The position numbers and the translations under genes are program-made. Below, in pieces: positions 1,348-41,668 of a stretch of 42,326 bases of DNA. Position 1 is the first letter of the stretch. Every line of letters starts with the position of its first letter. The notes beneath the pieces are model-generated. The model worked only from the letters and a program-made list of their open reading frames with translations, searched no databases and was not told where the DNA came from. The DNA is taken from contig MVBO01000130.1 in the NCBI GenBank assembly GCA_002261195.1, positions 1 through 42,326 on the forward strand. Reading direction: 5' to 3'. The stretch is from Bifiguratus adelaidae (taxonomy: Eukaryota; Mucoromycota; Endogonomycetes; Endogonales).

Positions 1348-4065
1348 TCATTCCGAATTCACCTTGCAAAAGTCGATGACCGCTCGAATACCGCGTACGC
1401 CAAGGCCCCTTTTTGGATAAGCGATATACATTGGGTCATCATGTACGCCAAACTTTCGCCGAAAATCAGACTTGTTACCCAACTTAAACGCCTTGGCAAT
1501 CGCGGCATAAGAATGTGAGAGAAGCTTGACGTGAAGACCGTGTATATGGTGTTGAGCGCTCAGCGTAGCGGTTGCACCAGCTCCGAAGGTGACTTGCTTA
1601 CAGCCAGTACTAGCTACCATTTGCAATGCGCGAGATATAGCCGTTTCGATGGTTCCGTTGGGTGCACCTGGGAAATCGAGCGCCCATTTGACTTGGTATC
1701 CATGTTCATAGGACAGTTGCGCGAGAACAACTAGGGCACATACGCGACCGTCCTGATCTTGTGCGTAGACATACGTTCTGTGCTCCTGGTCTTTCCATGG
1801 GTCGATGTGGCTGATACTTACTTGAGTGCCGCTTCGGTGGTTCAACCACTCTTGTATTCCCTGATCGCACTGATCTTTGATGGTTTCCGGGACGTCATCG
1901 CCGATGGGAACTTCTGTAAAAGAGATTCCCGCTCGCTCACTGCGTCGTTCCTTTTTGTGTATAGAATGATTACCGGGCTCTGTTCTTTGCTCTGCAGCGC
2001 AGCTGACAACTCGCCATCCAAACTTGTTCGACAATATCTCCTGTACGCGATAGCTCGTGAGTAGCCAGATAGGATCGAGTTTTGTTTCCTGCTTCAGCCA
2101 GGCAAGAAATTGACTGATGATGGTCTCGAATTGACTCTTGTCACAGAGAGGATCGCCCATGAGGATGGCGAAACCGTCTGTAGGGACGTAAGCAACCGCG
2201 GCACCGGTGCTCATATCCCGCCATTTTTGGTACCGATCGTCTACCCACGACGTATTCGAGGCGTCGCCGTAGTTGGCAATCAGTTTTTCCAAAGGTTGAA
2301 GCTCGATATTGCCATTAGGGCTTCGGTTCCACGGCGGATGAAGGGTACTGGCTTCGGGATGACGGAGCTTAAGGTCGTGGCTATCTGAATGTAAGCTTTT
2401 TGGATCTCGTGGGAAAAGCGATCCAAGTCGAATGTTGCCGAGACCAAGCATAAGCATGACTAGACGCTCCAATCCAATCCCAGCACCAGCATGTGGCGGT
2501 GCTCCCCACCTGAACCCATTCATGTATTCCTCCATGGTTTCCGGTCGCACGCCAGACTCTCGCATACGCTGCTCGAGCATCTTTGGATCGTGTATACGTT
2601 GACCGCCGGTTAATATCTCTTGCCCGCGGAGGAATATGTCAAAAGAATTTGTAAATTTCGGATTTTCGGGATCGAGCATGGTATAAAAAGGACGAGCAGA
2701 TGCCGGAAACTTGTCCAAGATGTAGTAGTCGGTTCCATATTTCTCCCTGACGAGTTCACCTAAGCGAATCTCGGCTGGCGTACTTAGATCTGCTTCTTCT
2801 GAAGGCGGTTCATTGTTCTCGTCCGTCCAGCCAGAGTCGTGAAGGAGTCTGACACCTTCAGTGAACGACAACCGCGGAGTCTCTTCGAGCCAGACTATAT
2901 CCTGCGCCGGAAACTGTGTCTTGATCAAGTCCAATTGGGATCGGTACCGTTTGTGTATGCCGGCAAAGACACTCTTTAGCATGTCGTCGATGAGCTCCAT
3001 CGCTTCGTGATAATGACCGTCTATTGTCATTTCTAAATCCAATCCGGTATATTCTGTCAGATGTCTGTGAGTGTTGCTGTTTTCGGCGCGAAAAACAGGT
3101 CCAATTTCATAGACTTTCCCGAAGTCAGCTGCGATACACATTTGCTTCGACAGCTGAGGACTTTGCGCCAAAAATGCTTCGCGTCCAAAATAATTGACCT
3201 GGAAGACACTTGAGCCTGACTCGGTCGCGCTAGCTTGCAATTTGGGCGTATGGATCTCGATAAAATCATGCCCTTCCAGGTAGGAGCGAAAAAGGGTGCA
3301 TATGCCAGCATTGACACGAAAAATGGCCTGAGAGACCGGCGTCCGCAGGTCCACGATGCGACTCATCAGGCGTTTTCTGTCGGTGATGTGAGTTGCATGA
3401 GATATTGGCGTATTCGTTTGGTCAATGGCGTATACGCTGAATGGCAAGCGTTGAGTGACTTGAGATATTAGGAATATTTCGCGCACATCGATTTCGGTGT
3501 CCCTGATGGAAGCGCCCTCCACCGTCTTTGGAGGCTTCGTGAGGATGCCTCTGACGAGCACAATATCTTCAGGGCGGAGGCGCGCGATCCATTTCATCAT
3601 GTGAGAGGATACGACTTGATCCCGCCGATGAAGAACGCTTTGAATCGTCAATGCCCGCTGCCGGAGAACGATGAAGGTGAGCTGAGGGCCCATATTGCGA
3701 ATAGCATGCACTCGAGCTTGCATCGTGACTTGGTCACCGTACTGTCGACAAGATAATGTATGCAAATCTGAATCTGGTTTCCGCTCCGCTAGCGTCATTT
3801 TGTCGTTGCTCAAGAAGCCATATCGCTGACGCATATCTGGCGAGTCTTCTTGAGCTGCCCGCTCATCCTCCTTTCGACGCCTATTCTCGATTTCTCTTTG
3901 GTATTCTTCACGCTCGTTGCTTCTGGCTTGCTGACGTCTCCGTCTCACCTCTGCCTTGCTTTGAGAATGACTTTGAGCGTGGCCATTAGTATAGCTAGTG
4001 TCATTATCTGGACGTATGCGGAGGCTTTCGCGCACGTTCGCTAGGCGTTCCTTCAATCTTGACAT
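1348..4065 (-). CDS. erdS: Aspartyl-tRNA synthetase-DUF2156 fusion (ergosteryl-3beta-O-L-aspartate synthase, ErdS type)
   Basis: Single-exon, 905 residues. Residues 1-100 form a charged basic extension. About 105-205 is the OB-fold anticodon-binding domain. About 235-560 is a class IIb AspRS core with motif 2 GPVFRAENSNTHRHLTEY (322-339) and motif 3 GAGIGLERLVMLMLG (from 527). Cytosolic AspRS markers are FLAQSPQLSKQM and the RAENSNTHRH block. Residues about 577-905 are a second module of the DUF2156/LPG-synthase C-terminal type (GNAT-like fold), with SDFRRKFG and DPMYIAYP near the end. This domain pair is the described ErdS: the AspRS part charges tRNA-Asp and the DUF2156 part transfers Asp to the 3beta-hydroxyl of ergosterol. 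The alpha/beta hydrolase gene directly upstream fits the reverse enzyme, ErdH. The ATG at 4063-4065 is the first in frame. A bacterial-style lipid lysyltransferase fusion was considered, but the synthetase part is AspRS, not LysRS. Confidence 0.9.
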   Translation of the reverse strand: MSRLKERLANVRESLRIRPDNDTSYTNGHAQSHSQSKAEVRRRRQQARSNEREEYQREIENRRRKEDERAAQEDSPDMRQRYGFLSNDKMTLAERKPDSDLHTLSCRQYGDQVTMQARVHAIRNMGPQLTFIVLRQRALTIQSVLHRRDQVVSSHMMKWIARLRPEDIVLVRGILTKPPKTVEGASIRDTEIDVREIFLISQVTQRLPFSVYAIDQTNTPISHATHITDRKRLMSRIVDLRTPVSQAIFRVNAGICTLFRSYLEGHDFIEIHTPKLQASATESGSSVFQVNYFGREAFLAQSPQLSKQMCIAADFGKVYEIGPVFRAENSNTHRHLTEYTGLDLEMTIDGHYHEAMELIDDMLKSVFAGIHKRYRSQLDLIKTQFPAQDIVWLEETPRLSFTEGVRLLHDSGWTDENNEPPSEEADLSTPAEIRLGELVREKYGTDYYILDKFPASARPFYTMLDPENPKFTNSFDIFLRGQEILTGGQRIHDPKMLEQRMRESGVRPETMEEYMNGFRWGAPPHAGAGIGLERLVMLMLGLGNIRLGSLFPRDPKSLHSDSHDLKLRHPEASTLHPPWNRSPNGNIELQPLEKLIANYGDASNTSWVDDRYQKWRDMSTGAAVAYVPTDGFAILMGDPLCDKSQFETIISQFLAWLKQETKLDPIWLLTSYRVQEILSNKFGWRVVSCAAEQRTEPGNHSIHKKERRSERAGISFTEVPIGDDVPETIKDQCDQGIQEWLNHRSGTQVSISHIDPWKDQEHRTYVYAQDQDGRVCALVVLAQLSYEHGYQVKWALDFPGAPNGTIETAISRALQMVASTGCKQVTFGAGATATLSAQHHIHGLHVKLLSHSYAAIAKAFKLGNKSDFRRKFGVHDDPMYIAYPKRGLGVRGIRAVIDFCKVNSE

Positions 4066-4549
4066 GGGGTATAGTCGGCTAACGAAACCTAGGTTGAATC
4101 GAGTTCGAGGTGTTGAACCCCGTGAGATAGCTGTAGATCGTTGACCCGTCTTTCGTCACGTTGCCCGTGCGCTTGGGACGCATGACTTTCATTACCCGGT
4201 ATTCTCTCTCACGCGAGACAGACGTCATTCTGCTTTCATCGCAAAAATAGATCATTGGACTTGCGGAAAGCTTATCGTTAGCGCGATTTGTCGGATAAAC
4301 TGGACAAGAGACGTCATGGTGGTGTAAAAAGGGATGGAGTAATGCCTTTTTGTTCTTGCTGTAAGATTGGAGTGTTTCAGCAGCGATGAAGTCAAGCATT
4401 GCGCTCTATCCGTACGCTAAAAGCATTGTTCTCTAGTCAAACTTTCATTATCACATGATAGGGGGTGCCTACATCGCATCAGGGTCTAAGTCTGAGTAAG
4501 CTAGACCGGATGGATCCAGAGCGTTCTATGTAGACTATTAACGTACATG
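4066..4549. other. intergenic region between ErdS- and ErdH-like genes
   Basis: This 484-bp stretch is the presumed promoter and 5' UTR of the ErdS-like gene and the 3' UTR of the upstream hydrolase. A minus-strand ORF of 106 codons (4079-4399) lies inside. It shows no recognisable domain, and I could not join it to ErdS by a plausible splice, so I do not call it a gene. Confidence 0.45.
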
Positions 4550-5668
4550 TCACCCATGAATATTCTCTAGAATCTGCTTGAGCTGAAAGCATGCCTCCCG
4601 ATATAATAGTTCGACGGCGGCATCTGGCCGCAGCCTTGGTTTCTTATCCCAGGCATGTTGGACGTTTTCAATCATGCAGAGTTGTACCTTTTTGCCGAGA
4701 TCCTTCAATCGCTGGCCGAATCTGTAGGCTTCATCTTGTAACATGTCCCATTCGCACGTGTAAATGATGAGATTGTCGGGTAGAGCAGCGAGTATCTCGT
4801 TAGGAGCTACGCCAGGTGATAAATAAGGGTGATGCAAATCACCGCCTGGGGGATATAGGTAGGCGGTGTCAAAGAGTTCCGCAAAAGTTGCGGAAAGAGT
4901 GAGTTCCGGACGAGCGCATGTCGACCTGCGTTGCGAACGTGTAATCGTGTAGTCGGTGCTTGGATACCAGGAAACGACGGCCGTAATGTTGTAGGACGGT
5001 GTCTGAATCAAGGGCTTGTTCAGAGGCTGAGAGCTAATACTTTGCCAAGCGTCGGCGGACAATGAACCGTTGTCCTCTTGCAAAACCTCCTCCTGCTTCA
5101 GTTCCTCCAACTTGAGCGGAACCGTAAAGGCAAGATTACCTCCCGATGAGAATCCAGTGAGTACTATCGATGCCGGATCGATGCCAAACTCTTCGGCCTG
5201 TCGTACGAGGTACAAGATAGCGTCAGCTCCGTCGTCTACCGCGGTCGGAAATGGATATACTGGTGCAAGCCTGTAGTCCACGCTCACCACCACCGCTTCT
5301 AACGTCTCCAAGACGACCTTGACCCAAGAGGCGTCGTCCGTCGCTGACCCAATAGTGAATCCCCCACCGTGAAAATTGACGACAACAGGATATCGTCGGG
5401 TTGTGCCTGCTCTATAGCCGCGAGGGGTGTAAAAGAAGAGTCGAATGTCGCCCACGCGATGAGAGATTGTAGCGGGTATAGACTTGACAAAAGATGGTCT
5501 CGGAGGAGTCGGACGGTGAAAACGTAGCCAGAGCATGCCGAAGCGCATCAATGTTCGCCAATATAGTGCCCTGGCGTGTACCGTCCATCGCGGCGATTTG
5601 ACGAGCGCTGTCATTTTAGGACTGGTGCGAGCCTGAAGCGCCTGTATTGTAGCAGACCTTGCTTCCAT
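4550..5668 (-). CDS. erdH: HSL-family alpha/beta hydrolase, candidate ergosteryl-aspartate hydrolase (ErdH type)
   Basis: Single-exon, 372 residues, uninterrupted. It has the hormone-sensitive-lipase (alpha/beta hydrolase 3) signature: oxyanion motif HGGG at 100-103, SVDYRLAPVYPFP after it, nucleophile elbow GFSSG at 172-176 (Ser174), probable acid Asp308 in CEWDMLQDEA, and probable His338 in ENVQHAWDKKP. It lies upstream of the AspRS-DUF2156 gene on the same strand, 484 bp away. Family knowledge: ErdH is an alpha/beta hydrolase that removes Asp from ergosteryl-aspartate. The family and catalytic residues are visible. The specific substrate is inferred from the neighbour, and a generic esterase is the alternative. 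A hydrophobic stretch around residues 36-50 may help membrane association. Confidence 0.78.
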   Translation of the reverse strand: MEARSATIQALQARTSPKMTALVKSPRWTVHARALYWRTLMRFGMLWLRFHRPTPPRPSFVKSIPATISHRVGDIRLFFYTPRGYRAGTTRRYPVVVNFHGGGFTIGSATDDASWVKVVLETLEAVVVSVDYRLAPVYPFPTAVDDGADAILYLVRQAEEFGIDPASIVLTGFSSGGNLAFTVPLKLEELKQEEVLQEDNGSLSADAWQSISSQPLNKPLIQTPSYNITAVVSWYPSTDYTITRSQRRSTCARPELTLSATFAELFDTAYLYPPGGDLHHPYLSPGVAPNEILAALPDNLIIYTCEWDMLQDEAYRFGQRLKDLGKKVQLCMIENVQHAWDKKPRLRPDAAVELLYREACFQLKQILENIHG

Positions 5669-7224
5669 CCAATGACATTCAGTAGTTTTCCAAGCCGTTG
5701 GAACTCGCTAAACCTTGGAAAACCAACGTCGCAATGACGACACCTTGTTCCTGAATCACGTACGAATTTGAGTTTCATATGAAAGACGTTTGAGTGTGGA
5801 GTGATGGGGTGTGATGTGCATCGCAGTATCCCACAGGATGCTGTAAGCCATGTTCCATGTTGTACACTGTAGATAACAAAGAGTAGAAACAAATGATAAT
5901 CGAATGGGAAGCAAGGGTAGGAGAGGGTTGGATGCGAGCATATTCATGATCATTCTTTTGATTTCGATCTGTTGCTGTGGCGCTTGACGGCGTCAACTGC
6001 TCAATGGAAGACTTTATGACACGATGCATGCAAATAAACACCAACCATGACGGTTCCAGATTCAAATATCAGCTGTTTCCGCGAGCTTGTTAGTCAAGCT
6101 ATGGGAAATTAAGAATTCAATCAATGTCAAACAGGATGAAAGAGGACGCGGTCAATGGACTATCATCGGCAGACACATGGACCGTGCGCTTCTAGCAGTT
6201 TCAAATACTCTCCCTTCAGTAATCGTCACGAGGTTGAGGTTCAAGTCTTGCATGATCTTTGTCAGCTGCGAAAATATGCGGAACGAATTCCAACGTTAGA
6301 AAGCAAGGCGAGCAGTAAGTTGAATATCGATACGTCCTTAAGACTCTTTGCACTTTGTCACTTGGATCTCTAGCTAGCTCATTTCGCGCAGCCAACGTGG
6401 TAATAAGAAGAGAATGAAATATAGTTCCTCTGCAGTTTACGTTGTTCTTCATGTGGTCAGTGGTGTCACTCGGTAGCTCCTATGTCAACGATCCAGGTAC
6501 CCTGTTCCGCAGTTAAGTCTTGGAACAGCCAGGTAGACCTTCGCTCTCAGGGCTGATCAAAACCTCGTAGAAACTTCAAGTTCAGTCAATACAGAGGCGT
6601 TGGGGAACGACGCGATAATAAATTGAAGGGTTGAGGTTTTGAACAAGGATGACCTTCTGGGAGACATTGTTTCTTGCTTTCAACCTTGTTTTCCAGGAGC
6701 AGAGTATGTTGTAGCTTTTTGACTCGCCACGCTGTGGATCTATTGCACGCAAAAGTAGACTAGACATCAACAGCCCCTGTCAAAGTCCACATGTCTTCGT
6801 TGCCCTCATCCGCAGGCTTTTGATACTCTTCCGTATTCGTACTTCTGCACTGCACTCATGCATGACTACTTTTCGGATGCGAGTGCATACGGAGTACACT
6901 GTAGAGTAAGAAAGCGTGACTCGACGCTTCAAGATACCCATAGCGAGCAATTAAAAAGTTGTGCCTTGTTGATGCGCATTGGATGTTTTGACTTGTAAAA
7001 ACACCGTGATCTCCCAAGGTGACATGATAACGACATTATTGGGCCAAATGGGTCCAGTACAGGGAAATGTAAGGCTAGAGAGCACAATGAATGCAACCTG
7101 CGCAATTTTCGGAAGGGCCAAAATTACCTTGTTAGTATATTGCTCACTTGAAGTGTATAAAGAGAAGGAAAGGTCAGTCTATTGATGAATACTGAGCAAG
7201 GCATATCAAAGCAAACAAGGAAGT
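5669..7224. other. long intergenic region
   Basis: About 1.56 kb between the ErdH-like gene (leftward) and the dehalogenase-like gene (rightward). Only short ORFs without recognisable motifs are present. A perfect 7-bp inverted repeat, CTGTTCC at 6502-6508 with GGAACAG at 6522-6528, could form a small hairpin of unknown meaning. I saw no tRNA, transposon ends or recognisable coding remnant. Confidence 0.5.
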
Positions 7225-8141
7225 ATGGCAGCAGTCACCATCCATCATGTGCACGTTGAGGGTGTCCATGTCTTTTAGCGACAGGCTGGATCCAAGGATT
7301 TACCAAAATTGCTTTTGCTTCATGGCTATCCCACCAATTCCTTCATGTTTCGAAACTTGATTCCTCGCTTATCATATAAGTTTCATATCGTTGCACCGGA
7401 TCTCCCAGGTTCGTGATAAGAGCATCATACCAAATGCCAAGGACAGATTTATTGACAGGTCGGATTACTACAGGTTTCGGCTTCACTGAAGTTCAAGATA
7501 AGTACAAATACACTTTTGCAAACTTGACAAACACCATCGCCAAATTTTTGGACGCCATCCAATGGCACAAGTACATCATTTACGTCTTTGACTACGGTGC
7601 GCCAGTTGGATTTCGATTGGCTTTACACCGCCCGCAAGACATAATCGGTATCATTTCTCAGAACGGTAATGCCTACGAGGAAGGTTTGGGGGACGCCTGG
7701 GCTCCAATCAAGTCCTATTGGCAAGAGTCTACCAAGGAGCACCGCGACGCTTTCCGACCTTTTGCAGAATATGATGCGATAAAATGGCAATACATGCACA
7801 ATGTTCCAGATCTAAGTTTGATTGATCCGGCCACCTACACATTGGACGCGGCGTTGACAGCAAGGCCTGGTAATCAAGACATCCAGATGGATCTCTTTCT
7901 CGACTACCAAACCAATGTCAAGCTATATCCAGAATTTCAACAATACTTTCGGGACAACCAGCCTCGGCTTCTCGCCATTTGGGGAGACGGTGATCCGTTC
8001 TTTATTCCGGCTGGTGCTAATGCATATAAGCGGGATTTGCCGCAAGCGGAGATCCGCTTCCTTCGGACGGGTCATTTTGCACTTGAGACCCATTCTTCAG
8101 AGATTGCCACCGCCATCATTGATTTCTTTTATTCAAAGTAA
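7225..8141 (+). pseudogene. Haloalkane dehalogenase/epoxide hydrolase-like alpha/beta hydrolase with in-frame stop
   Basis: Two exons: 7225-7408 and 7474-8141, with a 65-nt intron (GTTCGT...TACAG) restoring DLPG-FGFTE. The product would be 283 residues, normal for the family. Motifs: LLLLHGYPTNSFMF (oxyanion loop), nucleophile elbow VFDYGAPVGFRLA with Asp in place of Ser as in haloalkane dehalogenases and epoxide hydrolases, WGDGDPFF near the acid position, and catalytic His in TGHFALETH. A TAG at 7276-7278 interrupts codon 18, between VHVF and RQAGSKDL, where relatives usually read on (often FYR). The frame is otherwise intact, so this is a recent nonsense mutation, a base error or readthrough. 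No start downstream of the stop preserves the first core strand. Substrate unknown. Confidence 0.75.
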
Positions 8142-14647: not shown

Positions 14648-17600
14648 TCATTTTACGCCAACTGCCGGTAAAAGATCAAGGTACATCCTTGACCCACACT
14701 TCGATCGTCGCGATGCAAAGTACTGCTCCTCGGTACATTCCTCATTTGCTCTTTCTGAGTCGCTGTCCGAGTGCGCATGAGCGTAGGTCGCGACGACAAC
14801 GTCTCCACTCAGACTCAGAATTGCGTAACCTTGGTTTTTCACATTTTCCTCAATGTACGTCTGATCGACATGATATCCGACGATGGCATTTCCTCCAAGT
14901 GCAGCAATGTGTGCTCTCGCAACCGATTGCACCTCCATCAGGAATTGGTTTGCAAAGGAGCCAATACCGCCCGTGAAACTGTCATGCGTGACATGAGCCT
15001 CCTTGACGAAATGAAGCGACAATCGGCCAAGATATCGATCGATGCTTGCTCCAGGAATGTGAGATAGAGGTGTAATGTCGACAAATAATGGCGGTTCGCT
15101 GAGGTAGGTGGTAGGATTGGCTTCTGTGAGATTGATTGCCGAAGGCGATTGCTCGGTTATCTTTGCACCGGACGCGGTGAGATTATTTTTGATTGATCCG
15201 TTCCGCCTGAGGTTACTCTTATCATTCGGTACACCTAATTTCATCGTGTTGAACGTCATTGATAAGAGGTTGCCGATGCTTGGTAGAGACGGCCGTGCAC
15301 GGCGGCCTAGGTTGCCGTTTTTGTTTGTGAACGTACGGCGAAAAGCGACCAGACTGGCGCCATTCGCCTTCCGTACAAAAGGACTCTCAAACTTGAACTC
15401 GCCGTTCTGCCAACCTTCGCGCATGTTGCTGTTTCCAAGATCCGTTTGCCTAGACGTGTCGGCGTCCACGTCCACTTTGCTCAATGCCGCCTGCGGTTCT
15501 TCTATGCGCACTTTTCCGAGCGCAATGCCCGTCATGCGGATTTGGATGTCATTATCATTAGGTAATTGTATATCGTATTCAATGCCGCTAAAGACGCAGC
15601 TTTCAAAGTAGCTTAATTTTAGTCGGAGCTCTTCGTAAAGGCTTCGAAAGACGGATGCAAGTTGTCGGTTAGGGTGATGTGAGGAGGCATTGATCTCAGT
15701 TTGTTTGACCATCGTGATCAAGTGCATATCATCTGGTAGCTTATCCGGGTCGCTGCTGGTTTCAGAACTAGTATCGTCATCCTTCTTGTTGACATACCGT
15801 GACTGAAGGCCGGCGAAATAAACGTGCTTCGGCAAAAAGTCCGTGTTACACAGTGTAAAGTCTTCGGCCCAGACAGGATCCAAAAGTACAGCAATAAGGT
15901 CTTCGTCCGTATCATCGTCGACCTGCACGATCGCATTGTGCTGGTATTGATCAGCATCTAGCTCGGAACTATCATCGCTGGAATCGTCGCTACTAGTTTC
16001 ATTGACAGAAGCGCCGTCCTCATCCGTGCCTTCCTCAATGTCTGCTAGCTCACGCTGCGCTCGAAATTCCTTATCCAAGAGCTCTCGATTCCTTTCGGAT
16101 AGATCCATAATCTTTTGCTGCATCTGCAAAAGCTTTGCATCCTCCTCGTCAACGACTTCAATGTTTCTTGCAATCCGAAGGGCTGGTGGTGTCGGTAGTG
16201 CGCTCAAATAGCTTGCCGTTCCACATGCATAGCCCACAATGAGACTCTCGCCAACAGCGAGGTGGAATTTAAGGCCAAAGATCGAATTGAGACCTTGAAT
16301 TTTGAGCTTGTAAAGGAGTTGGCGATGCAAGTCGTATTCGATAAAAGGTACAGCATCGCTAACAATGCCAGCGTTTGTCTCGCCTTCTTTCCGTTTTTTC
16401 GGTCGGCAGACATGAGCTTCAACAAAAGCGGGTGATCCAACCGTTTCGAGTTCAAGAGGCGTTTCGATTGTTGCCAGTAGCATCTCCGCCACGTACTTAT
16501 TTTTACAACAGCCACATCGCACAAAGCCCATCGAAAATGGTGACGACCGTCGAGAGTACGGAATGTGACACATCCGACATCTCAACGGTTCTTCTTTGGC
16601 AGCGCTCTGCTGATGACGCAGCTTTTCGCTCGGCGTCGGGCCGACAGTAGACCTCGTCGCTGTATGCGTCAGGTTATTCTCCTCTGTCCATGACATTGGC
16701 TCTCCCGTGCGGATGGACGTGCTGTCGGCCGTGGAAACATCGTCGGCATTAGACGCCATCTGCGGTGTGAAAAGAGACATGTCAATTATAGCAGCTGTAC
16801 CGTTGGCTGAAAGGACGCATAGCTCGTCATTGATAGTCGTCGTCTCTGAATAACCAATGACATGAGGGCACCCAAGGGATCGAGCATGACTTTTGATCTC
16901 TTCGCGTAGCTCATCCCACCATGTATCTCGAACCTCTTCCTCGTCATCCTCGATTAATTTGACGGAGCGAGCAGACACGATCCCACCGAGATGAAGGACG
17001 CTGCCTTGAGGAAAGTCTCGTATAGTCAGGATTTGCTCGTCGAGTAAATGATAGTCGTGTCCCCTTCGATGCTGAACCGAATTTGCAGCAGATATGGTGG
17101 TAGAGTCAAGGGAGCTTTGACGTGGTTTGTGTGGGAATGGGATAGGAGCGAGAGGTGTGGGCGGCGATTCACTGCTGACCGAAGACTTGCTGTCGCTGTC
17201 ATCTTTCGACGTGGTTTTAGCCTGCATCTCATTGACCATATAAACCGCATCACTGTCCTCCTTCGAGGGTGAAACTTGGGCACGAACAGGCGTGGCGCTA
17301 TCGTTGTCAGAGACCGGGGACGCGATATCAGTGTCCTGTTTACTTTCGCTATCGGAAGACGTATCGGACGACATATCGTATTCGGATATTGGAATCAATT
17401 TGACCGCCGTCCCTATGGCTCTAGCCGTGATGGATCGCTCTTCGTTTTCCAGATCAAAGCATTGCTTATAGCCGACAATTGCATTTCCACCCAATTGAAG
17501 AACTTTTTGACCCACCAACCTTCTCAAATTGCCCGCAAGTCGAAAGAAGAGCCTTTGTCGGGACTCATTGCTCACACGCGGGCTTCGAAACGAGTCTGAC

Positions 17601-18262
17601 CAATGGTATTCTGGATCATCCTCGGTGAGCAGGTCGTCTACGAGGCCAAACATGGCGGTCACATTGAAGCCAGGTGGAGGACACCCTGAGTGGAATCATG
17701 AGCCCTTGGCGAAGAACAGAGCTGGATGCTAGGTATTAAGCGATCTCTTACCTGTCGAGAAGAACTGGACGCCAGCAGAGCTCTCCTTGAAAGGATTCAC
17801 GTCTCCAAAGAATTGAAGCTTGACAGACGCATTAATCTCACCTTGCATCTCTCTAAGCGTATCATATATGGGAAACCACCCAGACGTCTGGCCAAGCGAC
17901 GCCCATGTAAGCAAGGGATTGAGATCTAATATCACGGCGCCGATCATATCATTAATGATCCGGTCATAGTCGAAGACGCGGATCTCTAGTGGCTCATTCT
18001 GAAGATCAGCATCATCAGACACCTCGAAACGAAAGTCCTATTTGACAACCGCGTGAGCCTTACGTGATGCGAGCCCTGGTCGCGTCTCTTGTCCACCAAC
18101 CTCATTCCAAACGGGATTCAACGTTTTACGAGCAATACCCGTTCGCTGCGGCTCAAAGTCACCGAACTTCACTTCCACATACGCATCAGTCAGTTCGGAT
18201 GACCTATCCATGACGGGCAAGTCTCGTGCCGCGTTGATTTTGACCTTGAGAACGCATGGCAT
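14648..18262 (-). CDS. C2CD5/CDP138-like C2-domain protein
   Basis: Exons 18262-18101, 18037-17752 and 17685-14648; introns of 63 nt (GTTGGT...ATAG) and 66 nt (GTAAGA...CTCAG). About 1,161 residues against about 1,000 in human C2CD5. The N-terminal C2 domain begins MPCVLKVKINAARDLPVMDR, with LTDAYVEVKFGD, NPVWNEDFRFEV and GWFPIYDTLREMQGEINA. The family continues with DDPEYHWSDSFRSPRVSNES and RQKLF-like text. The signature GGNAIVGY occurs near the N-terminal core (GGNAIVGYKQCFDLE) and again near the C-terminus (ALGGNAIVGYHVDQTY). The middle is acidic and Ser-rich. The ATG at 18260-18262 matches the family start. Animal C2CD5 binds Ca2+ and phospholipids and acts in vesicle insertion; the role in fungi is unknown. 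Confidence 0.87.
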
Positions 18263-37037: not shown

Positions 37038-39208
37038 ATGTCTCGACGCAATGGGGTGAGAGGGCCTACATCGGCATTGACTAGCTTCCTTAGGGTGAGT
37101 ATAGAATATTAGAGGCTGACTTGGCTGACATCGCAGTAGGATCACGGCATTCGACCTCGCAATATCGGTTATCGTTCAAATGCGCAGCAAGGGGCAAGCA
37201 CGTCGACCAGTACCGCAAACACACCGTCAGCGGAAGAGGGCAACTCCACGAGTGTTTTAACGGCGACAACAAGTACGACGGAGAGTTTGGTGGACGAGAA
37301 TGGGCAGATCGAGGCATCGACGACCGAGACAATGACGGTAACGCAGAGTGGGGAGAATCTCGTGGTCGAATACACACTAGCCACATCGTCCACATCAAGT
37401 GGTCGGCAGACGAAGAAGAAGACCAAGAAGAAGCGTGGGCATGACTCTGATTCGGATGAGGATTTCCGTATTGACGATGACGATCTCAAACCAATGGCGA
37501 GTTCAACATTGCCTCGCGCTGGGTTTTCTGCCAAGAATCGGAGCAAGACGCATATCGAGTTTTGCTCACAGTGCAAGTGTCGCTTTACGGTGGAGAACGG
37601 GATGGAGTACATCTTTCGTAATGAGACTGGCCTCATGATTTGCACCGCCTGCAAAAGCGGCAAGACCTCGGTTCGTCGTCCTGCGAAACGGAAGCGTCGG
37701 GTGCCTGGCACGGGTGCCGGCGATGATGGCATCGAGATAACGACGTTGCAGGATCTCTGTATACAGCTCATCGCAAAGTACATTGAGGATGTGGAGGCCT
37801 TGGGAGATATTGGTTTGGTGAATATGGACAAGATTTGCAAAATTATCTCCAAGAATCGATCACTCAACACCCAGACTGCACGCTTGTTTCTCGATAGCTC
37901 AGAAAAACAGATTCGACTGTATGATTGCACCAACATTGAAGAACAAGGCTTGTTGTCGATTTCCAACTATTGTCCACATCTCGAAAGTCTTCACTTGGAT
38001 TTCTGTGGGCGCATCAATGACACCGTTATCCGTCGTTATGCCGATCTGCTACCGAACCTTCGTCATTTTAGCATCCATGGACCATATCGCGTCACGCCAG
38101 CCGCCTGGCTTTACTTTTTTGAAAAGCTGGGTCATCAACTCGAAACATTTAGCGTCGATGATACACACCGATTCAATGCAGATTGTTTGCGCGCTCTTAT
38201 TTCTAGAGCTAGCGATCTCAAGGTGCTTCGTCTGAAGCGTCTTGGTTTACTCGATGACGAGATGGTGTCCATGATTGCTCAGCTGGACGCCCTCGATGTG
38301 CTGGATCTCACTGAACCGAGAACCACCGACCAATATCAGACCGATGTCCATGTCAGCCCTCATGCCATCATCACCGTGCTTAACAAACTTGGTTCATCCC
38401 TGGAAGAATTTGTATTGACCGGCTTCACGTCCTTGACGGATGATGTACTTTTGGAGGGTATCCTGCCGACCTGTACCCACCTTCGGAAACTCTCACTTTC
38501 GTCCTGCGACCTCATCACATCACCTGGCCTCGTCAAATTATTCCGTACCTGGACGTATACACGGCTCAATCCTGGTCTGACACATCTTGACGTATCCAGA
38601 TGTACGCATCTACAAGATATGTCTTTGTTTTGGATCGTAGCTCACTCCGGTACGACGCTTCAGTTCTTAAACGTAAACTCCTGTGACGAATTGAGCTCCA
38701 TGGCCTTTTACTGCATTGCCGGAGCCCTCACCGCTGATCGTATTAATGAGGCCATCCATGAAGAAGCCAAGAAGGAACATGAGGAAGAGGAGGAGAAAAA
38801 GAAGCAGGAAAAAAGCAAGCAAAAAGGAAAACGAGCCCAGAGGGATGCTCCGGCTACCTTAGAAAGTCCCAATCCAGTGGGAGAAGCATTTGCGGTCGAA
38901 CTTCGGCAGCCGAACGGCATGCTGTCCCATGAAATAGATCAACTCGCCGCCCAAGTACCCAACATTAGCCCATGCTCAGAATTGCGAATTCTTGATACAG
39001 CCTTCGTTCGAGCCGTGGATGACGAAGTCGTTGGCACTCTCATGCGTTCTTGCCTTGGTCTGAAATGCATCAAAGTTTATGGTGATCACAAGGTAAGCAA
39101 CTCATAATGATTAGACTGCGTGTGACTCATCATCGATCATAGGTGACCGAATGTGCCTATATCCGCAAGGGTGTGAGATTGGTCGGCCGAGAAAGCGATG
39201 ACTTGTGA
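37038..39208 (+). CDS. RAD7: RAD7, leucine-rich-repeat subunit of the RAD7-RAD16 repair complex
   Basis: Three exons: 37038-37094, 37140-39092, 39143-39208; introns 45 nt and 50 nt. Product 691 residues. The N-terminus MSRRNGVRGPTSALTSFLRD followed by HGIRPRNIGYRSNA is characteristic of fungal Rad7. A Ser/Thr-rich linker and a Cys-rich motif (CSQCKCRF, ICTACKSGK) precede about ten leucine-rich repeats (for example LESLHLDFCGRINDTVIRRY and LRKLSLSSCDLITSPGL). A Lys/Glu-rich insert (residues about 490-525) interrupts the repeats. It ends VGRESDDL. Rad7 partners Rad16 in damage recognition and in a cullin-linked ubiquitin ligase. It is transcribed away from RAD16. Only 147 bp separate its stop from the LEU1 start. 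Confidence 0.95.
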
Positions 39209-39279
39209 GAACAATTGCAATGTCCCAAAATGGGAGGATTTGCCGCCCGCAAAGGGGGCCATTGCCATAATTGTAATAT

Positions 39280-39285
39280 CACGTG
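39280..39285. promoter_or_regulatory. CACGTG E-box upstream of LEU1
   Basis: A palindromic CACGTG 71 bp before the LEU1 ATG in a 147-bp intergenic region. Such boxes bind bHLH factors (Cbf1/Pho4/Tye7 type). No Leu3 site (CCGG-N4-CCGG) was found. Functional role is inferred from motif alone. Confidence 0.35.
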
Positions 39286-39355
39286 ATTTAGATGATCTTG
39301 TTAAAAGCCCTCGTCCTTTCAACGTTCTTTCTCCGCCTCCCTTTCACACGCAACC

Positions 39356-41668
39356 ATGCCAGCTCCCACATCGACTGAGCCACGTACGCTCTACGACAAG
39401 GTTTTTCAAGACCATATTGTCGATCAACAAGAAGACGGTACATGTCTCTTGTATATTGACCGACACTTGGTCCACGAGGTGACTTCCCCACAAGCCTTTG
39501 AAGGTCTCAAGAATGCGAACCGCAAGGTGCGTAGACCCGATAATACCCTCGCTACGGTGGATCACAATATTCCTACGATACCTCGCAAGACGTTCAAGTC
39601 CATGAGTACGTTTATTGACGAGGCTGAATCAAGAACGCAATGCATGACGCTCGAGACGAACGTTCGCGAATTTGGACTGACTTACTTTGGTATGGACGAC
39701 AAGCGTCAGGGGATTGTACACGTGATTGGTCCTGAACAAGGTTTTACCCTACCTGGTACGACGGTTGTCTGTGGAGATTCTCACACCGCCACACACGGTG
39801 CTTTCGGAGCGCTGGCTTTCGGTATCGGTACTTCGGAAGTTGAACACGTTTTGGCTACGCAAACACTTCTACAGAAGAAGAGCAAGAATATGCGCATCAC
39901 AGTGGATGGTGCGTTACCCGAGGGTGTGACGAGCAAGGATATCATTCTACACGCGATCGGTTTGATTGGTACCGCTGGTGGTACCGGTTGTGTCATTGAA
40001 TACGCCGGTTCGGCCATCCGCAGTTTGTCCATGGAGGCACGTATGTCTATTTGCAATATGTCCATTGAGGCAGGTGCTCGAGCTGGCATGATTGCCCCAG
40101 ATGAGATCACCTTGGAGTATCTCAAGGATCGTCCTCTTGCCCCTCAAGGCGCCGAATGGGACAGAGCCGTCGAATACTGGAAGTCGCTCGTCTCCGACGG
40201 AGGTGCCAAATACGACGTGGAGGTTCACATTGACGCTGCCGATATTGCGCCTACGATCTCTTGGGGCACGAGTCCACAAGACGTGGTTCCCATCACCGGT
40301 TCCGTGCCTGATCCCGCTGAAGCCACAGATCCCGCCAAGAAGGCTGGTATGGAGCGCGCTCTTGAATACATGGGCCTGAAGCCAAACACGCTGATAGAAG
40401 ATATTGTCATCGACAAGGTATTTATTGGATCTTGCACCAACTCTCGTATCGAAGACCTTCGTCAAGCCGCCAAGGTGGTCCATGGTCGCCACGTGGCTCC
40501 CAACATTTATGCCATGGTTGTCCCTGGTTCCGGACTGGTCAAGGATCAAGCTGAAGCTGAGGGGTTGGATCGCGTCTTTAAGGATGCCGGATTTGACTGG
40601 AGAGAAGCTGGTTGCTCAATGTGTCTGGGCATGAATCCTGATCAGCTCAAGCCTGGTGAACGCTGCGCCAGTACCAGCAACCGAAACTTTGAAGGTCGTC
40701 AAGGTGCCGGCGGTCGTACGCATCTCTGCTCCCCCGCGATGGCCGCTGCCGCAGCTATAGCTGGCCACCTTGTCGATGTTCGCAAGTTCGTGGGCAGCGC
40801 GTCTGGCGCGGCTGATCACGACAAGCCTAAGATTACCATTCTCGACCCTAAATCCTTCTTGCGTGAAGACAATTATCAACTCTTGAAGGTGGCTGAGGAG
40901 GAAGCTGCAGATCAAGCTAGTGAAGTGACAGATGCTCCGCGAGATACCAATTTACTATCCGGAGGCAATGGAGGTATGCCCGCCTTCACGGTTCTCAAGG
41001 GTATCGCTGCCCCTCTGGATCGCTCCAACGTCGACACCGACGCCATCATCCCCAAACAATTTCTCAAGACCATCAAACGCACTGGTCTCGGCAAATCTCT
41101 CTTCTTCCCTCTTCGCTATGATCCAAAGACTGGTGAGGAGAACCCCGACTTTGTGCTCAACAAGGAACCCTACCGTCAAGCCAAGATTCTGATATGCACG
41201 GGACCCAACTTTGGTTGTGGATCTTCCCGCGAGCACGCTCCGTGGGCCCTTAACGACTTTGGTATTCGATGCATCATTTGCACCAGCTTCGCCGACATCT
41301 TCTTCAACAACACCTTCAAGAACGGCATGCTTCCATTGACACTACCTCAAGAGCAAGTGGACATCCTTGCTCAAGATGCCCGTGAGGGACTAGAACTTGA
41401 CATCGATCTCGAGAATCAAGTGATTCGCCGTCCTAATGGAGAAACTATCCCCTTTACCGTCGAAAGCTTCCGACGACACTGTCTTCTCAACGGCCTGGAT
41501 GATATCGGTCTCACCCTGCAAAAGGAAGATAAAATCGCCAGCTTTGAAGCCCGACGCTCCGAGACTTGGCCATGGTTGGATGGCAAGCAATATCGTGAAG
41601 GAGGTGAACCTGTGCGACTGACCCCTGTCAAGGTCAATGACGCTAAGAAGCAAAAGTTGGACTGGTAG
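39356..41668 (+). CDS. LEU1: 3-isopropylmalate dehydratase (isopropylmalate isomerase)
   Basis: Single-exon, 770 residues, uninterrupted and full length. It interconverts 2- and 3-isopropylmalate in leucine biosynthesis in the cytosol. The fungal enzyme fuses the bacterial LeuC and LeuD subunits. N-terminal block [20 protein letters not shown], then [33 protein letters not shown] and [11 protein letters not shown] carry the 4Fe-4S cysteines. The swivel domain starts near residue 540 with [17 protein letters not shown] and ends after [18 protein letters not shown]. Intron-free and strongly conserved. Confidence 0.97.

Follow-up and report, generated by a model that had tools for sequence, protein, structure and literature searches.

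A window of 42,326 nt, by which we mean the whole stretch of DNA analysed, very probably carries the ErdS-ErdH pair of Bifiguratus adelaidae, a putative writer and eraser of sterol-bound aspartate. In the 2020 work of Yakobov et al., ErdS is said to be the ergosteryl-3beta-O-L-aspartate synthase of Dikarya and ErdH the eraser, an ergosteryl-aspartate hydrolase, and the pathway was reportedly presented as one of higher fungi. B. adelaidae, a soil fungus (genome of 18.6 Mb in 286 contigs), belongs to Mucoromycota, Mucoromycotina, Endogonomycetes, Endogonales, as befits the early-diverging fungal host guessed at in an initial annotation of this DNA. The enzyme pair is one already known, but its host belongs to a phylum where it was not expected and lies outside the group with which the pathway is usually associated. 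The literature searched contained no joint mention of Bifiguratus with ErdS, ergosteryl or DUF2156, and the 2020 survey may list the species. The two ORFs lie in tandem on one strand, 484 bp apart, with the hydrolase as the upstream member, which upholds the adjacency of fusion and hydrolase claimed initially; a 106-aa ORF (4079 to 4399) is the sole listed ORF of at least 100 aa between them. Feature coordinates are collected in Table 1.

Table 1. Features of the candidate sterol-aspartylation locus and of the host marker gene (window positions)
Feature	Position	Strand	Evidence
ErdS, 905-aa AspRS-DUF2156 fusion, ergosteryl-3beta-O-L-aspartate synthase candidate	1348..4065	-	ORF, Pfam, alignment, trees, predicted structure
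Class II AspRS catalytic core, residues 231-554; QSPQ 301, FRAE 325, GLER 531	2404..3375	-	Pfam and motifs
DUF2156/LPG_synthase_C aminoacyl-tRNA transferase domain, residues 603-883	1417..2259	-	Pfam
ErdH, 372-aa HSL-type alpha/beta hydrolase, ergosteryl-aspartate hydrolase candidate, triad S174-D308-H338	4550..5668	-	ORF, Pfam, alignment, trees
Spacer between the ErdS and ErdH genes, 484 bp	4066..4549		ORF ends
LEU1 (3-isopropylmalate dehydratase), host marker and control gene	39356..41668	+	Database match

The ErdS ORF runs unbroken from an ATG start and encodes one polypeptide with the order typical of its class, AspRS first and DUF2156 second. Pfam identified an OB-fold domain (tRNA_anti-codon; residues 113 to 198; E = 2.5e-6), the synthetase core (tRNA-synt_2; E = 1.7e-75), and LPG_synthase_C, i.e., DUF2156 (E = 5.2e-17; 62.3 bits against a cut-off of 27.5). 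The complete AspRS core fused to DUF2156 that had been read from the DNA is thus a single ORF with both domains, the transferase being detected at residues 603 to 883 where 577 to 905 had been given. The AspRS active-site motifs are intact, including GGQRIHD at residue 487 in addition to QSPQ, FRAE, and GLER, which we take to be such motifs, and their columns are mostly invariant or near-invariant in an alignment of 42 sequences. The DUF2156 part likewise retains its conserved columns and fold, a transferase fold as in MprF/PGS, within a predicted structure of low overall confidence (pTM 0.50). ErdS matches PDB entries 9w9e/f/g nearly end to end; these entries are absent from the 50 structural matches listed for the ErdS model, and no mention of their codes was found in the literature searched. 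In a tree of the AspRS part, with sequences drawn from the best matches to the window and archaeal outgroups included, ErdS grouped with Dikarya ErdS and apart from canonical AspRS with support of 99/96 (34 sequences versus 5). Scored by site, the window carries the ErdS letter at 44 of the 53 positions where Dikarya ErdS agree and canonical AspRS differ, the canonical letter at 1, and another at 8. Its end branch is long (0.96 versus a median of 0.29).

The upstream ORF is an HSL-type alpha/beta hydrolase with a Ser-Asp-His triad and an HGGG motif. Abhydrolase_3 was found at residues 96 to 340 (E = 1.5e-45), with HGGG at 100, GFSSGG at 172, EWDML at 306, and QHAWD at 337. Ser174, Asp308, and His338 are invariant in 30 of 30 aligned sequences, in keeping with the intact Ser-Asp-His hydrolase noted initially. 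The E-values exclude chance as the source of the domain matches in either protein. In trees with HSL paralogues from B. adelaidae, ErdH stood apart from them whether eight were included (98/99, with a long-branch warning) or three (100/100); its end branch measured 1.25 versus a median of 0.31. Rather than joining unrelated esterases, it grouped with proteins that include four labelled ErdH by JGI, the labels being annotation and not assay.

Linkage of the two genes recurs elsewhere. Six named species are common to the ErdS and ErdH matches listed, and three of them (Candelaria pacifica, Piccolia ochrophora, and Xylona heveae) carry both genes on one contig, an equal base count of the two records being taken as the same contig. 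Locus tags of the two genes differ by three in Candelaria and by one in Piccolia, and a further contig of 100318 bases among the matches listed also carries both genes; in Trichodelitschia, Verruconis, and Rhizodiscina they are on different contigs. Adjacency is therefore seen elsewhere and is not special to B. adelaidae, so that the compact two-gene module proposed initially stands as an arrangement of this genome but is shared with some ascomycetes.

That ErdS and ErdH were both acquired by transfer from Pezizomycotina appears marginally, though not decisively, more likely than vertical descent followed by loss in other lineages. Tentatively, the pair may have moved as a complete neighbouring unit from a fungus of that group into an endogonalean Mucoromycota and been kept there under constraint, a tRNA-dependent lipid-editing pathway having in that case spread between phyla. 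ErdS trees drew on the best 120 of 1090 matches, of which 115 were long enough and 57 were kept at 80% identity; 30 of those 57 were hand-picked for the whole-ErdS tree, with one basidiomycete ErdS (Tulasnella). The best such tree places the window with Leotiomyceta, leaving Orbilia and Tulasnella outside (84/65). The DUF2156 part sets Tulasnella and Orbilia against Leotiomyceta plus the window (98/91), and here Ascomycota without the window was rejected (p = 0.037), Leotiomyceta without the window giving p = 0.09. For ErdH, trees were built from the best 120 of at least 5834 matches (8000 candidates scored). With eight paralogues (38 of the 120 hand-picked), the window is nested in Pezizomycotina sequences at forks of 86/69, 91/78, 93/81, and 94/87, under a long-branch warning. 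Sorting of individual sites gave small numbers: where Tulasnella and Orbilia agree against Leotiomyceta (n = 6), the window follows Leotiomyceta at 4 and the others at 2, and where Tulasnella has the canonical letter (n = 4), it equals Leotiomyceta at 2 and has another letter at 2.

These nested placements and the DUF2156 split speak against vertical descent, in which the pair was present in the Mucoromycota-Dikarya ancestor and lost in most Mucoromycota, with an old copy surviving in Bifiguratus, a history that we consider possible if rather doubtful. In its favour, eight of the nine origin tests (p values unadjusted for multiple testing) leave groupings that omit the window unrejected, at p = 0.09 to 0.51. 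By the AU test on whole ErdS, a Dikarya clade without the window was kept (p = 0.30), as were Ascomycota (p = 0.31 and 0.40) and Leotiomyceta (p = 0.50 and 0.37); the AspRS part with archaeal outgroups gave p = 0.18 for Dikarya. The ErdH tree with three paralogues (36 of the 120 hand-picked) left the place of the window unresolved (p = 0.51 for the listed ErdH without it). Median identity of ErdS is 52.8% to the ascomycete-dominated sequences and a similar 55.7% to the one basidiomycete sequence, and the GC3 values of ErdS (0.52) and ErdH (0.54) are those of five other ORFs of the window (0.52 to 0.57). Mucoromycota names are absent from the 61 named sequences among the best 120 of 1090 ErdS matches, whereas by our count 35 of the 120 listed LEU1 matches bear Mucorales names, which again counts against descent. 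This is a hint only, since the best 120 were listed, about half of them were named, and even the 120 listed LEU1 matches include no Endogonales name besides B. adelaidae, so that little can be concluded about this order from its lack of further members among the ErdS matches listed. Because of this LEU1 result and the unresolved second ErdH tree, we trimmed the likelihood given to transfer and raised that of descent. The LEU1 tree (37 hand-picked of the 120) unites seven Pezizomycotina sequences in one clade without the window (100/100) and resolves the position of neither Saitoella complicata nor Mucorales; S. complicata (Taphrinomycotina; 74% identity) is, by score, the best full-length named LEU1 match listed, above Mucorales.

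Two further signals were set aside. The AspRS part joined Lasallia and three other sequences (95/83), but no longer did so once archaeal outgroups were added, and the AspRS-part tree puts Tulasnella inside Leotiomyceta and therefore tracks species relations poorly. The lack of introns was not counted in favour of transfer, as further long ORFs of the window share it. As to the wider distribution foreseen in the initial annotation, the pair is present in one member of Mucoromycota, but the trees lean slightly to acquisition from Pezizomycotina rather than to an ancient presence in early-diverging fungi.

According to PMC9437257, the AspRS module of ErdS makes Asp-tRNA and the DUF2156 module hands the aspartate to ergosterol. 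By analogy with the characterised families, the AspRS domain of B. adelaidae ErdS would charge tRNA-Asp with aspartate, the DUF2156 domain would pass it to ergosterol, or to a closely similar sterol of this host, at the 3beta-OH, and the adjoining hydrolase would strip it from the sterol again. The two proteins would then write and erase an amino-acid label on a membrane sterol, apart from protein synthesis; conserved residues, fold, and gene company suggest each of these steps in B. adelaidae. The end branches of ErdS and ErdH are long, and the acceptor or the amino acid could therefore have shifted.

The rest of the genome bears on this assignment. Class II D/K/N synthetase genes, sorted and named by our own reading of ORFs, comprise a cytosolic AspRS on contig C178, a mitochondrial-type AspRS on C30, AsnRS on C215 and C206, and LysRS on C207 and C57. 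The C178 gene is the separate canonical AspRS whose presence the initial annotation had proposed checking: it has several exons, stops directly past motif 3, and shares 46.6% identity with the AspRS region of ErdS across 459 aa. ErdS is its own sole full-length match in the genome. A search for three sterol-pathway families found Sterol_MT_C on two contigs, ERG2_Sigma1R on one, and ERG4_ERG24 on three, which suggests that B. adelaidae may make ergosterol itself. That the fusion is mainly a second translational AspRS or serves another acceptor lipid, with the hydrolase an unrelated neighbour, appears unlikely. ErdS does exceed the cut-off of NCBIfam TIGR00458, aspartate--tRNA(Asn) ligase (446 bits against 368), and the long end branches of both proteins and the separate contigs in three of the six species named in both lists would fit such a function, but the genome has a separate AspRS gene, the DUF2156 part keeps its conserved columns and fold, and fusion and hydrolase occur together as direct neighbours.

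Ascomycete contamination of the assembly, by the contig or by the pair region, is highly improbable: the named best matches of both genes are almost all ascomycete, but LEU1 of the same contig lies outside the Pezizomycotina clade, composition is even along the window, and identities of at most 56% to 115 ErdS sequences and 57% to NYXK01000071.1 are lower than expected had a sampled lineage recently contaminated the assembly. A prokaryotic origin of the fusion was also discarded, on a scan of prokaryote genomes that returned at least 80 loci: of the 80 listed, 79 match the AspRS part (a few extending slightly beyond) and one covers the fusion. This last locus, at 3001 to 6124 of NYXK01000071.1 (from a MAG labelled Deltaproteobacteria), encodes an ErdS-like fusion matching residues 27 to 901 (57% identity in the best segment), whose N-terminal region lies in other frames, as introns would cause; the contig appears to be fungal DNA that contaminates a bacterial record, and ErdH-like matches above 34% were not found in that genome record.

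Other features of the window were noted in passing. LEU1 is 100% identical over 98% to BZG36_05108 of B. adelaidae, an NCBI protein of 1341 aa with LRR and LEU1 domains that occupy two ORFs here (37287 to 41668) and that is probably a merged gene model. No such 100% match of the host's own was among the database matches listed for ErdS or ErdH, genes that may lack annotation, have a different gene model, or have been omitted from the listing. At its left end the contig has a 6-phosphogluconate dehydrogenase-like gene (99 to 1113) seen as two ORFs, the larger (99 to 773) with Pfam support; close to the pair, on the opposite strand, lies a further alpha/beta hydrolase (7413 to 8141), which belongs to a different Pfam family, Abhydrolase_1; and a C2CD5-like ORF of 1004 aa (14648 to 17662) has YbjQ-like domains and no C2 domain at E = 0.001. 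Rfam models gave no match in the window at or above their gathering scores.

With its linked and conserved pair, this member of Mucoromycota lends itself to two questions: is sterol aspartylation an old trait or one that can be passed on, and do two genes suffice to install it? The answer, whichever way it falls, bears on the role of aminoacylated sterols. Among known systems, ErgS resembles the candidate as a sterol-specific aminoacyl-tRNA transferase of the DUF2156 kind, but it is not known to have a fused synthetase. Identity with ErgS was rejected, as the DUF2156 domain of the window is fused to AspRS and the fused gene is the only PF09924 match in the genome. ErgS, the ergosteryl-glycine synthase, is found only in Ascomycota according to PMC10449517. 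LysX of actinobacteria, as well as MprF, A-PGS, and L-PGS, share tRNA-dependent lipid aminoacylation but attach different amino acids, and to glycerolipids. The LysX model NF002821 matches ErdS at the synthetase end only (model positions 580 to 1096 of 1102) and, at 86.6 bits, stays far below its cut-off of 742, which dismisses LysX. The hydrolase candidate, likened to known ErdH by sequence alone and 44 to 53% identical to 29 aligned sequences, has in common with it the HSL fold, HGGG, GxSxG, and the Asp and His residues, and clusters with the JGI-labelled ErdH. From Dikarya ErdS the fusion differs in its Mucoromycota host, its long branch, and identities of 48 to 56% (41 aligned sequences), while sharing the AspRS-DUF2156 order, length, conserved residues, and clade.
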